DNA of 47,517 nt from Betaproteobacteria bacterium (GTDB lineage Bacteria; Pseudomonadota; Gammaproteobacteria; Burkholderiales; Burkholderiaceae_A). The stretch lies in NCBI GenBank assembly GCA_028139135.1, contig JAOINB010000008.1, positions 1-47,517 of the forward strand. The letters run 5' to 3'. The notes under the pieces are model-generated. The model was not told the DNA's origin. It saw nothing but the letters and a program-made list of their open reading frames with translations, and made no database searches. Made by a program: the position numbers and the translations under genes. Positions 17,353-22,787 of this stretch are shown in pieces (within the stretch, counting starts at the first letter, position 1; each line of letters opens with the position of its first letter).

Positions 17353-18747
17353 TTATTTACCGATACAAAATCGTGAAAAAATCTCTTCTAACACTACTTC
17401 ATTTGATATCTTACCTGTTATTTCCAGTAGAAGAGTTTGTGCGAGCCTGAGATCTTCCGCAGCTAGATCCAAAGAAAAAGATTTAGCGTTTTCAACACAA
17501 GTTTGCAACCGTAGTTCACACTCTATCAAATTATGGATACTTCTTTTTCTAAGAAAAATTATTTCTGTATCATTTTCTTTGCTATCCTTTAGCTGGAAAT
17601 GCTCAAGTAATACTTTGCGCAAATTTAAAATACCTTCCCCTGTTTTAGCAGAAACAGCGACTTTGTTTTCTATGAAATGTGCATTATTTTTCAAAATTTT
17701 GTTATCACAACTCAAATCCAATTTTGTAAAAACGAACAATACCTTATCTTCTGGAATTTTTACTGAATTAACCAGTCCTTTTGCTTCGAGTAAATTGTGT
17801 TCATTGAAATTGTTAATGTCAACACAGAACAAAACCAGGTCCGAATTTTTTGCTTGTGAGAGGGCTCTATTTATCCCCTCTGCCTCAATCTCGTTAGTAG
17901 TCTCTCTTATTCCAGCTGTGTCAAAAAAGTCAACTTGTAGGTTTCCCATGTTGATAGCTGATAAAATTATGTCTCTCGTGGTTCCAGCATCTTTGTGAAC
18001 GATTGAAACATTTCTGTCAGATAATCTATTCAACAATGTAGACTTGCCAGCATTTGCGTTACCTATGATGGTTATTGATAACTTATGCGACAAAGATTTT
18101 CCTTTTTGCGCAGATGCAATAGTACGCTTTAGCCAAATTTGTTTCTTTTCAATAGCTTTAACAAAATTTTTCATATCGAAGGACCCTGTTTCATCAGCTG
18201 AAAAATCCAAATGGGCTTCTAACTCGGCTCTTAATTTAATTATAAAATTTGCGAGAGAAATGATATCTTTCCCAAATCCTTCATTAATAATTCGGTTAAT
18301 TGCATTGACCTTTTCCTCAGATTCAGCATTGACTAAATCGGATATAGCTTCAGCCTCATGTAAACAAATCTTTCCATTTATATATGCCCTTTTTGAAAAC
18401 TCCCCTGGTTCAGCATACCGCACGATCTTACCTGGAAATGATTGTGAGATACAGGTATCCATTAAAATTTTTATCACACCTAAACCTCCATGAATTTGGA
18501 ATTCACACGAATCCTCACCAGTGAAAGATTTAGGCGCCTGAAAAAAAACAACAAGACCTTTATCAAAAACCCTATTGTTAGAACTTTTGAAGTTTGCAAG
18601 TGTAGAAACTCTATCCTTGGGTACAAATCCAACTATGTGCTTCAATATACGCTTAGTTGATGGACCAGAAACCCTAAATATTGCTAATGCGCTCGCAATT
18701 GGCGCTGAAGACAACGCAACAATCGTGTCATTATCCAGCGCGGACAT
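17353..18747 (-). CDS. mnmE: tRNA modification GTPase MnmE
   Basis: MnmE forms the complex with MnmG that modifies U34 of tRNAs. The N-terminal folate-binding domain begins IVALSSAPIASALAIFRVSG. A helical domain follows with the G domain inserted in it: P-loop GNANAGKSTLLN (about 226-237), the DAGTTRD switch, DTAGIRET (about 271), and FTKLD as the G4 motif. The protein ends with the functional FCIGK Cys. Its 464 residues are standard. It follows yidC on the minus strand and overlaps its end by a few bases. Confidence 0.98.
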   Translation of the reverse strand: MSALDNDTIVALSSAPIASALAIFRVSGPSTKRILKHIVGFVPKDRVSTLANFKSSNNRVFDKGLVVFFQAPKSFTGEDSCEFQIHGGLGVIKILMDTCISQSFPGKIVRYAEPGEFSKRAYINGKICLHEAEAISDLVNAESEEKVNAINRIINEGFGKDIISLANFIIKLRAELEAHLDFSADETGSFDMKNFVKAIEKKQIWLKRTIASAQKGKSLSHKLSITIIGNANAGKSTLLNRLSDRNVSIVHKDAGTTRDIILSAINMGNLQVDFFDTAGIRETTNEIEAEGINRALSQAKNSDLVLFCVDINNFNEHNLLEAKGLVNSVKIPEDKVLFVFTKLDLSCDNKILKNNAHFIENKVAVSAKTGEGILNLRKVLLEHFQLKDSKENDTEIIFLRKRSIHNLIECELRLQTCVENAKSFSLDLAAEDLRLAQTLLLEITGKISNEVVLEEIFSRFCIGK

Positions 18748-20392
18748 TTAATTTGCGCATTATCGACCACTGCTGCGCAATAGATACTAAGTTGTTCACC
18801 AGCCAATACAAAACGAGACCGGATGGGAAAAAAAAGAAGAAAATTGAGAAAACGATTGGCATAGCCATCATGATCTTCGCTTGTAAGGGATCAGGTGGCG
18901 CTGGATTGAGACGCATTTGAATGAACATTGTCACAGCCATAACTATGGGTAAAATAAAGTAAGGGTCTGGTTTCGATAAGTCAGTTATCCAAAAAATCCA
19001 CGGTGCATTCCTAATCTCAGCACTAGCAAGTAAAACCCAGTACAAAGCAATAAATACTGGAATTTGTATGAGAATCGGTAAACAACCTCCTAAAGGATTA
19101 ATCTTCTCCTTTTTGTATAAATCCATCATAGCGTTATTAAGCTGCATCTTGTTTTCTTTAAACTGCTCCCTTATTTTCATAATTTTTGGAGTTACTGCTT
19201 TCATCTTAGCCATCGACTTATAACTTGCCGCTGTTAGAGGGAAGAAAAGAAGTTTGATGATTATTGTTAGGCTTACGATAGCCCAACCCCAATTGCCAAC
19301 AAACTTGTGTAGTTTGTCGAGCAACCAGAAAATAGGTTTTGCGATTATAGTTAACATTCCATAATCAACCACTAAATCAAGTCCCCGCTCTAGTTTTTTC
19401 AAATCTTCCTGGTATTGCGGTCCTACGTAGAGTAGATTTGAGAATGTCTGCGTCTGACCTGGCTGAAGTGCGTTTGATAATTGTATAGCTCCAACAGAGT
19501 ATTTGTTATTTTTAAGCTTCCTTGTGTAAAATTCGCGTTCCAGTTTATTTTTGAATAACCACGCCCCGACATAGTAATGCTGAATTATTCCAAACCAACC
19601 ATTGTCAGATATTTGCACATGTTCTTGTTTTGATTCTTCAATGTCTGAAAAGGAAACCTTTTCAAATTTTCCATTTTCTGTGTATATGACCGGTCCAGTA
19701 TAAGTGTTGTAGAAACTACTTCCTCCCAGAGGCGGTTCAGAGTCTCTGGAAAGCTGCAAATACAAACCTGTCTTTACTTCTTCGGTTGCCATATTGACCA
19801 AGTCGTGAGTAACCTCTATGACGTAACTATCTGGTATTATCCGAAATGTTTTTGTTAACGCAACTCCATTTCTATTTGCAATCAAGCTAACGCTGTCAGA
19901 ACTTTTCATTTTGATTTCAAATGTCGTTAAATGATCAGGGAATTTTTCTTTCTTACTTCCTAGAGAAATAAGCCCCGATTCAGCCAGATACACCGATCGA
20001 TTGTTTTTTTCAAATAAGATTACTTTCCCGTCCGGGTATTCCTCTGACACCTGATCTTTTAATTCAGCAAACTCTAAAGTCCCACCAAAAGTATTTAAGA
20101 AGATCTTCAATTTTGAATTTTCTAATACCAATATTTCTGTAGTTTCTTTACCTTTTTCTTCTCCCTCATCTTTTTCAAATGGAGCTATCTTTTTTGCCTC
20201 TAACTTATTTACTGAAGGCAGATCAGAAGAATAATCGTTTTCTTTAAGACTTGGGGAGTCGGTTTGGTTAGGGTTAGTAGTACTACTTTCTGACAAAACT
20301 AATGGTTTTGTGTTGAAACTTATCCATTCATCCCACAATAATAATAAAGTGAAGGAAAATATAATCAGCAGGATAGTGGTTCTAAACTTCAC
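18731..20392 (-). CDS. yidC: Membrane protein insertase YidC
   Basis: YidC inserts proteins into the inner membrane alone or with Sec. It has an N-terminal membrane anchor (about 5-22), a low-complexity acidic/Ser/Lys linker (about 35-85), a large periplasmic beta domain, and a C-terminal five-helix core (from about 345) with the conserved Arg region SYKSMAKMKAVTPKI, GGCLPILIQIPVFIALYWVL and GLVLYWLVNN. At 553 residues it is a full gram-negative YidC. The start overlaps yidD by 11 bp, and the stop overlaps the mnmE start. Confidence 0.97.
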   Translation of the reverse strand: MKFRTTILLIIFSFTLLLLWDEWISFNTKPLVLSESSTTNPNQTDSPSLKENDYSSDLPSVNKLEAKKIAPFEKDEGEEKGKETTEILVLENSKLKIFLNTFGGTLEFAELKDQVSEEYPDGKVILFEKNNRSVYLAESGLISLGSKKEKFPDHLTTFEIKMKSSDSVSLIANRNGVALTKTFRIIPDSYVIEVTHDLVNMATEEVKTGLYLQLSRDSEPPLGGSSFYNTYTGPVIYTENGKFEKVSFSDIEESKQEHVQISDNGWFGIIQHYYVGAWLFKNKLEREFYTRKLKNNKYSVGAIQLSNALQPGQTQTFSNLLYVGPQYQEDLKKLERGLDLVVDYGMLTIIAKPIFWLLDKLHKFVGNWGWAIVSLTIIIKLLFFPLTAASYKSMAKMKAVTPKIMKIREQFKENKMQLNNAMMDLYKKEKINPLGGCLPILIQIPVFIALYWVLLASAEIRNAPWIFWITDLSKPDPYFILPIVMAVTMFIQMRLNPAPPDPLQAKIMMAMPIVFSIFFFFFPSGLVLYWLVNNLVSIAQQWSIMRKLNVRAG

Positions 20393-20636
20393 GATTTCTC
20401 TTTCTAGGCACCGGGTCTACTCTTTGCTTTGCTAAAACATTACACCTAATTAATCTGGATATTATTAACGCAAGACCTCGGATGGGCCCATGAACCTTTA
20501 CGGCTTCCTCTGCATAATCAGAACATGTAGGTAAAAATCTGCACCTAGGACCATAAAGGGAGGATATGCTAAGTTTGTAGCATTTTATAGTTATGCGAAA
20601 AAGATTGATTAGAAAGTTTTTCAGTATCACAAACAT
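20382..20636 (-). CDS. yidD: Membrane protein insertion efficiency factor YidD
   Basis: YidD is a small protein thought to help YidC-dependent insertion. The 84 residues contain the family signature YKLSISSLYGPRCRFLPTCS with its Cys pair, then DYAEEAVKVHGPIRGL and RLIRC. It lies 10 bp after rnpA and overlaps yidC, the conserved rpmH-rnpA-yidD-yidC order. Confidence 0.96.
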   Translation of the reverse strand: MFVILKNFLINLFRITIKCYKLSISSLYGPRCRFLPTCSDYAEEAVKVHGPIRGLALIISRLIRCNVLAKQRVDPVPRKRNREV

Positions 20637-20646
20637 TTATGCATTA

Positions 20647-20999
20647 TTAATCATTAACCAAATGCTTCAATTCAAGATATAAACTTTTTTTCGCACATCT
20701 AAAAGTATACCTGGGTAGTGTCCTAATAGATAACAATATGTGGGTGTATTTGAAATTTCTTCTAGCAAGCTCTCGTCCCCACCTCTTAATTAGGTTTCTA
20801 GTTGTACTTTTTTTCACTATCTTTTTTGGTAAAATAAAGCCGATATTTATAGGCGTATTTTCATGCCTATCGACGACGTCACCTTTTTCACTTTGAAAAT
20901 CTCGGGCATTAAAAAATAAAGTAAAATTTTTACTTTTTTTTTTGAGCGTTTTAATTTTGCAAAAACGTCCTCAGAAACAATAGCCTTAACCTCTCTCAA
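20647..20999 (-). CDS. rnpA: Ribonuclease P protein component RnpA, needs a -1 shift at an A10 run
   Basis: RnpA is the protein partner of the RNase P ribozyme that matures tRNA 5' ends. From about 20933 down to the stop at 20647-20649 the frame is a clear RnpA: FTLFFNARD, NIGFILPKK, then TTRNLIKRWGRELAR (the RNR-type motif). This frame has no usual start codon before a GTG just ahead of the RNR motif. Upstream, another frame begins with TTG at 20997-20999, preceded by AGGA, and reads REVKAIVSEDVFAKLKRSKKK, which fits the RnpA N-terminus. The two join through a run of ten A (plus-strand T at 20934-20943): an eleventh A, or a -1 slip, gives one 117-residue protein of normal size. It lies between rpmH and yidD. 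Confidence 0.85.
20934..20943 (-). repeat. A10 homopolymer inside rnpA (frame break)
   Basis: Ten A in the coding strand mark the exact point where the two rnpA frames meet. Such runs are prone to polymerase slippage and to sequencing indels. Confidence 0.85.
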
Positions 21000-21014
21000 T
21001 TTTCGTTCCTAAGC

Positions 21015-21149
21015 TTAAACGGACAACCTTTTCCGCCCTTTAGCCCTTCGAGCCCTAATAACTGCACGGCCACCTTTCGTTCTCATTCTGACCAGGAATC
21101 CATGGGTTCGCTTTCTTTTGGTAACCGAAGGTTGATAGGTTCTTTTCAT
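21015..21149 (-). CDS. rpmH: 50S ribosomal protein L34
   Basis: The 44-residue protein is a textbook L34: [22 protein letters not shown], then [20 protein letters not shown]34 belongs to the large ribosomal subunit. The ATG is at 21147-21149. It starts the rpmH-rnpA-yidD-yidC-mnmE group and is divergent from dnaA across 74 bp. It ends 15 bp before the rnpA TTG. Confidence 0.97.
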
Positions 21150-21223: not shown

Positions 21224-22618
21224 ATGGATCAGATCGAACAAAAAAATTTTTGGGGTAAGTGTCTTCTCGGTATTAAAAAAAATTATACAATCCAGCAACT
21301 TAAAACCTGGATTGACCCAATATCTATAAAAGACTTACAAATCTCAAAAACTTCTATTAAGATCACTCTGTTAGCTCCTAATAAGTATAAACAACAATGG
21401 GCCTTAAACCACCTATCACCGATCCTTAAAAACTGGATTTCAACGACTTATTCAAAAACTGTTTTATTGACTATTGAGATTAAATCTCATCCGATAGCGC
21501 CAACCTCTAAGGAAAACACAAGACAATTCCCGATCAAAGATGTGGATAAGGCATCTGACAATAAAAATCACAACACCGAACCAAAGACTAGGATTCAAAA
21601 CCCTCACCTTAACCCTGATTGGACATTTGATAATTTTGTTCTTGGTAAAGCAAATCAGCTAGCAAGAGCAGCTGCGCAGCAAATCTGCGATAACCCTGGA
21701 CACGGTTATAACCCGTTCTTTTTGTACGGTGGTGTCGGTTTAGGCAAAACCCACCTCATACATGCTGTGGGTAACACGATTTTAGACAAAAAACCGACTG
21801 CTGGTGTGAAATACATTCACGCTGAATCCTACGTTAGCGATGTCGTAAGAGCTTACCAGACTAAGTCGTTTGAAGAATTTAAAAAACGTTACCATAGCCT
21901 CGATATTCTGCTAATCGATGATATTCAGTTTTTCGCCGGAAAGTCTCGTACTCAGGAAGAATTCTTCTACGCTTTCGAAGCACTTATTGCTGCAAAGAAA
22001 CAAATAATTATAACTTGCGATACTTACCCCACTGAAATAGGCGGTATAGATAATCGCCTAATTTCACGTTTCGGATCAGGATTGACAGTTGCCATAGAAC
22101 CACCTGAGCTAGAAATGCGAGTTGCTATATTGTTAAAGAAAGCAGAGAAAGAACATCTTCCTTTGCCAGAAGATGCAGCTTTCTTCATCGCAAAACATTT
22201 AAGATCAAATGTACGAGAACTTGAGGGTGCTCTACAAAAAATAGAGGCTTATTGTTCTTTTCATACAAAAACCCCGACACTAGAAGTTGTTCGCGATGCA
22301 TTGAAAGACCTTCTCTCTTTGCAAAAAACAGCGATTACCATAGAAATGATACAGAAAACAGTTGCTGAATTTTTTAAATTAAAACTCGCTGATATGTACA
22401 GTAAACGTAGGCCAGCTTCTATAGCTATCCCAAGACAAATTGCTATGTACTTGAGTAAAGAATTAACTCAAAAAAGTCTCCCCGAAATTGGATATGCGTT
22501 TGGCGGTAGAGATCATACTACCGTTTTACACGCAGTTAAGAAAATCCAAAATTCCAGACAATCAAATGCAACATTGAATCATAATTTGCATATTCTTGAA
22601 CAACAATTGAGAAATTGA
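21224..22618 (+). CDS. dnaA: Chromosomal replication initiator DnaA
   Basis: DnaA opens the origin and loads the helicase. Domain I begins [11 protein letters not shown] with the DnaB-contact WI motif (LKTWIDPIS). A charged, variable linker (about 85-125) follows. The AAA+ domain starts [19 protein letters not shown], with Walker [11 protein letters not shown] (about 168-177), Walker [11 protein letters not shown] (about 226-235) and sensor [10 protein letters not shown]. The C-terminal DNA-binding domain carries [11 protein letters not shown] (about 428-438). At 464 residues it is standard. It heads the dnaA-dnaN-gyrB run. Confidence 0.98.
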
Positions 22619-22787
22619 ACAAAGAAGGGATAAAATGGGTATAACCGCAAACAAATTCCTAATTATTAATTTTATTAACAATCAAAAGGCATTGGCCTTA
22701 ATAACTAACTCTTTTTTTTTTAATAGAAACAGTCATTTATGATAACAACACCAAAAAACTTTTCTTATTATTACTACTAATATATAT
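22619..22787. other. dnaA-dnaN intergenic region, candidate origin element
   Basis: The gap is strongly AT-rich. Near dnaA are two weak DnaA-box-like 9-mers on the minus strand (TTATCCCTT and TTATACCCA, about 22625-22645). At 22765-22779 the minus strand reads TAG TAG TAA TAA TAA, which resembles the DnaA-trio repeats of the unwinding element. A T10 run lies at about 22712-22721. No perfect DnaA box is seen. The role as origin is inferred from position, base composition and the nearby change of gene orientation. Confidence 0.35.

Follow-up and report, generated by a model that had tools for sequence, protein, structure and literature searches.

The window analysed here, a stretch of 47,517 nucleotides that constitutes contig C51 of the draft genome G000 (52 contigs, 1.49 Mb, 86% completeness, with some ambiguous bases and a GC content of ~38% over the 1.29 Mb read), contains the gene order rpmH-rnpA-yidD-yidC, divergent from dnaA. 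Here rnpA, which encodes the RNase P protein, is divided between two reading frames that join at a run of ten A, with the following features at and around it:

18731..20392, minus strand: yidC (NF002352)
20382..20636, minus strand: yidD, downstream neighbour of rnpA (TIGR00278)
20647..20999, minus strand: rnpA (RNase P protein), split over two frames, between rpmH and yidD; core and joined protein both above the PF00825 cut-off
20647..20933, minus strand: RnpA core in the -1 frame, with the RNLIKRWGRE motif; no start codon precedes the conserved part in this frame
20934..20943, minus strand: A10 tract (T10 on the plus strand) at which the frame switches, the core lying in the -1 frame (from the sequence and relatives)
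20944..20999, minus strand: N-terminal segment of rnpA in the TTG frame, consisting of LREVKAIVSEDVFAKLKR and the two bases that begin the following codon; the same frame is kept in G001 and G003
20997..20999, minus strand: TTG start codon of rnpA, aligned with a TTG in G001, G003 and G004
21007..21010, minus strand: Shine-Dalgarno-like AGGA, separated from the TTG by 7 nt (from reading the sequence)
21015..21149, minus strand: rpmH (L34), upstream neighbour of rnpA (TIGR01030)
21224..22618, plus strand: dnaA (TIGR00362)

As a sequence-only reading of this DNA had claimed, rnpA is readable only through a -1 shift at the ten A, and the TTG, with its AGGA and a fitting N-terminus, lies in a different frame from the core. 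From the TTG, the gene opens LREVKAIVSEDVFAKLKRSKKK; past the A10 the TTG frame departs from that of RnpA and reaches a stop at 20847. The core reads SKNFTLFF...NIGFILPKKIVKKSTTRNLIKRWGRELARRN...LVND up to a stop at 20647, and its frame, closed upstream by a stop, offers no ATG, GTG or TTG ahead of the conserved part of RnpA, the first such codon occurring at 20817. The joined protein matches Pfam PF00825 with 36.2 bits (profile positions 6-88; cut-off 22.3) and the core alone with 32.4 bits; for the stricter model TIGR00188 the score is 27.6, under the cut-off of 38.35. RnpA is generally essential, and no second rnpA was found in G000, in which the RNase P RNA was detected.

Comparison with the sister genome G001 revealed coding conservation on each side of the tract. 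The N-terminal part carries 5 synonymous and 4 nonsynonymous codon changes in the TTG frame, as against 2/9 and 1/8 in the two wrong frames, small numbers that reflect its length of only 19 codons, and the core carries 21 synonymous and 25 nonsynonymous changes in its own frame, as against 8/42 and 9/40 in the wrong ones. Both parts are conserved as protein, each in a different frame, so that the two-frame coding is not due to chance. The earlier supposition that the gene probably works is supported.

The rnpA tract within the genus

We extended the comparison to seven other members of the genus (G001-G007). Judged by DnaA, AG-913-B20 (G003; 89% identity) and AH-287-N17 (G004; 85%, its record labelled as a MAG), both uncultured beta proteobacterium isolates, are the closest named relatives, with other Burkholderiales ranking after both. 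From their naming, we take these two to be marine single-cell or marine draft genomes; a literature search found no paper on a named relative.

A poly(A) tract occupies the same rnpA site in five (G000, G001, G003, G004 and G007) of the six genus members whose rnpA could be read, no rnpA having been obtained from G005 or G006. It is in frame in 2/5, namely G001 (A11, intact ORF from the TTG) and G003 (TCG followed by A10, intact ORF), and out of frame in 3/5, in both directions: the core lies in the -1 frame in G000 and in G007 (A10, with an ATG-initiated N-terminus, MAKLGSLKTRKDFSQFLNCG), and in the +1 frame in G004 (A10). In G002 the gene is an intact ORF without a long tract, and among the listed members of other genera of the family no such tract is present. 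The look at related genomes that the sequence-only reading had proposed revealed a tract that is kept with a varying frame, and a break in G000 that is absent from its sister.

Further genes split at long A tracts

Scans for long open frames preceded by an A run but without a start covered 1.29 Mb in G000 and 1.09 Mb in G001. An initial pairwise survey of the two genomes had shown few breaks, because those common to both are invisible to it; they were uncovered by the start-codon scans. Four further genes, truB, rpiA, a histidine phosphatase and ybeY, are split at A10-A12, the first three in both G000 and G001, and the phosphatase in two more genomes (G004 and G006).

In truB of G000, the N-terminal part reads up to GDKEGAV and an A10, beyond which a different frame gives IVKCGKPEIL, and the joined product matches TruB with 221 bits across the junction. 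Profile matches in G001 likewise place two TruB_N segments in different frames (C32 47659-47865 and 47841-48089), and truB is a single open frame of 306-319 aa in G002, G004, G005 and G007. In both sisters rpiA reads MPDL, then A11, then NAAYAA... in another frame, and the joined rpiA and ybeY products match their families. In G000 and G001 the phosphatase reads MKIVLIRHGQTDWN, A11 and then, after a change of frame, IQGH...; the gene is out of frame in the opposite direction at an A12 in G006 (L148), gives two overlapping matches in different frames at an A10 in G004, and is intact in G002, G005 and G007; joining its parts raises the His_Phos_1 score from 99.5 to 135.4 bits. Finally, ybeY is split at an A11 in G001 and lies in two frames in G004. 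In G000 (C13:19934-19944 and downstream) it may be decaying, since besides the same A11 it carries a deletion of ~50 nt relative to G001 and a T9 run.

Several candidates were set aside as ordinary starts beside A runs: a 536-aa ORF at G000 C45:49728, for which both genomes offer an ATG at the tract, the ORF at G000 C3:29622, which starts just downstream, and gene junctions such as G000 C17:15474. We left sdhE, with A11-A12 at its start, uncounted, as an in-frame start is available; the A11-A12 tract at the sdhB/sdhE overlap is kept in four genomes (G000 C45:55445-55456, G001 C12:36300-36310, L312 and L308), in-frame starts exist there, and its frame relative to the upstream ATG varies among species. 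A third-position conservation scan returned only neighbouring or overlapping genes, for example sdhB/sdhE.

Other irregularities lay apart from this class. A methionine aminopeptidase-like gene (named by eye; G000 C11:21491-21596) has a frameshift at AAAAAAGGG, away from long A runs, and is intact in G001 (268 aa); the frameshift in G000 is probably an assembly indel. Heptosyltransferase-like and MfnB-like genes (identified by eye; G000 C45 near 34984 and C36 near 3706) lack an ATG, GTG or TTG where the start is expected, the nearest candidate being ATT. A 19-base A/T run is present in both sisters (G000 C34:41046-41064 and G001 C1:145094-145112), outside ORFs of at least 70 aa.

Whether a tract is out of frame depends on its length. 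When the sense A tracts of conserved G000 genes are counted, none of 273 was found out of frame at A8-A9, zeros that come from the start-codon scan and pairwise comparison and are less certain than the positives, as against 5 of 16 at A10 or longer. The in-frame tracts number 200 at A8, 73 at A9, 9 at A10 and, after removal of the phosphatase, 2 at A11 or longer; two out-of-frame tracts are A10 (rnpA, truB) and three A11 (rpiA, phosphatase, ybeY). The p values for this dependence, which are post hoc and inherit the uncertainty of out-of-frame counts curated by hand from the scans, are 2.7e-7 with ybeY and 4.9e-6 without it in G000 (Fisher), and 3.6e-4 in G001 (3/20 out of frame at A10-A11 versus 0/247).

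Explanations for the out-of-frame tracts

We consider it probable that the rnpA A10 is a real out-of-frame slippery tract, bridged by RNA polymerase slippage such that full-length RnpA would be made from some of the mRNAs. RNA polymerase would slip on the A10 and produce mRNAs with more or fewer A, of which the fraction whose A number joins both frames would be translated from the TTG into the full-length protein. As slippage at 10 or more A would give mixed mRNAs regardless, selection on the exact length of the DNA tract may be weak, and the tract would for this reason drift in and out of frame among species, as would those of truB, rpiA, the histidine phosphatase and ybeY. Slippage on long A runs yields insertions and more rarely deletions, and becomes steeply more frequent as the tract lengthens (PMC5574713), and the presence of both shift directions among our cases fits such a process, with insertions and some deletions. 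Slippage fits all cases by one cause, and the recurrence of splits at long A runs makes the rescue suggested by the sequence-only reading the best explanation; it is from these genomic patterns that we infer slippage in the RNA, its frequency and the production of RnpA. Two published observations count against it: none of the slippage events detected in Buchnera restored a reading frame (PMC5574713), and low slippage may have evolved in organisms rich in A9 runs (PMC1088944). Pseudogene status is unlikely for genes such as these, with coding conserved on either side of the break.

One alternative, which that reading named in the form of an A lost in the assembly, is an error of assembly, amplification or sequencing, with a true rnpA tract that is in frame and an ordinary gene. 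One-base homopolymer errors are common, the draft has ambiguous bases and at least one frameshift that lies away from long A runs, and the rnpA tracts of G001 and G003 are in frame; loss of one isolated A in assembly is possible for the rnpA tract of G000, because its sister is in frame. It is a poor general explanation, however, as the same rnpA site is out of frame in three of the five tract-bearing genus members, two of them species other than that of the window, and four more genes are split, three of them in both sisters. Breaks common to separate assemblies, as those of truB, rpiA and the phosphatase are to two to four of them, cannot easily be explained by assembly error, and the remaining tracts of at least ten A in G000 are mostly in frame, so that tract errors are not rampant. 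We therefore regard error as an unlikely account of rnpA.

A less probable alternative is that the frames are joined by the ribosome on A-rich mRNA instead of by RNA polymerase slippage. Within TCA AAA AAA AAA the slippery heptamer A AAA AAA falls in phase with the zero frame, and a -1 shift is what most cases need (rnpA of G000 and G007, truB, rpiA and ybeY). These properties, an A-rich slippery sequence and a -1 direction, are shared with dnaX-type programmed -1 ribosomal frameshifting, but a search for a stimulatory structure near the rnpA tract found no special RNA structure, the RNA folding no better than shuffled sequences (z -0.46). Moreover, a +1 shift, the opposite direction, is needed by the phosphatase of G000 and G001 and by rnpA of G004, and splits were seen only at ten or more A, though shorter A-rich heptamers permit -1 shifts too. 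Recent replication slippage, in which the tract would be polymorphic or phase-variable in the population and the assembled cell or consensus would carry an off allele, is the least plausible account: tract length does vary by species, in or out of frame, but an off state of a generally essential gene should not last without rescue, and several species carry truB, rpiA and the phosphatase out of frame.

RNA polymerase slippage, our preferred reading, has precedents in insect symbionts, where poly(A) slippage rescue has been described (PMC5009743, a review; PMC3017870), with eight such genes in Blochmannia vafer, including dnaX, dnaG and pth (PMC3017870), and 12-50% corrected transcripts cited for symbiont genes (PMC5009743). 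Frameshifts in Buchnera and Blochmannia are likewise single frame changes within ~9-12 A, in conserved housekeeping genes that are intact apart from the break, and some are common to several species; here G000 and G001 have the breaks of truB, rpiA and the phosphatase in common, and rnpA keeps its tract with a varying frame. The rnpA break resembles them in lying exactly at an A/T run of at least ~9, with each part conserved in a frame of its own. The sequence-only reading drew the parallel with AT-rich endosymbionts; the organism here, with ~38% GC and a 1.49 Mb assembly at 86% completeness, belongs to an uncultured betaproteobacterial genus and need not be a symbiont. The genes concerned also differ, being rnpA, truB, rpiA, the histidine phosphatase and ybeY. 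Another bacterial gene broken at poly(A) and reported to be rescued by transcriptional frameshifting is tssM of Citrobacter rodentium (PMC4256274), a single secretion gene in one species, as compared with several housekeeping genes in one genus here. A text search of incomplete coverage on slippage in free-living bacteria returned single examples such as tssM and no genus-wide set, a weak sign of novelty. The kind of phenomenon is already known; the lineage is new and the mechanism is not.

If the slippage reading is correct, slippage-rescued frameshifts would not be restricted to insect symbionts, and annotation pipelines would label real genes in such lineages as pseudogenes or split genes. 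RnpA, TruB and YbeY all act in RNA maturation, so that a leaky supply of them would be of physiological interest. A further-reaching proposal, that a planktonic lineage not bound to a host relies on slippage for several housekeeping genes including that of the RNase P protein, and that the in-frame transcript fraction sets or tunes their level, is doubtful. The genus supplies natural in-frame and out-of-frame versions of one tract for comparison. Elsewhere in the window, priA (607-aa ORF, 2111-288 on the minus strand) carries an in-frame A10 at 1700-1709, after residue 134, which is likely also prone to slip, and a T10 lies between dnaA and dnaN at 22712-22721.
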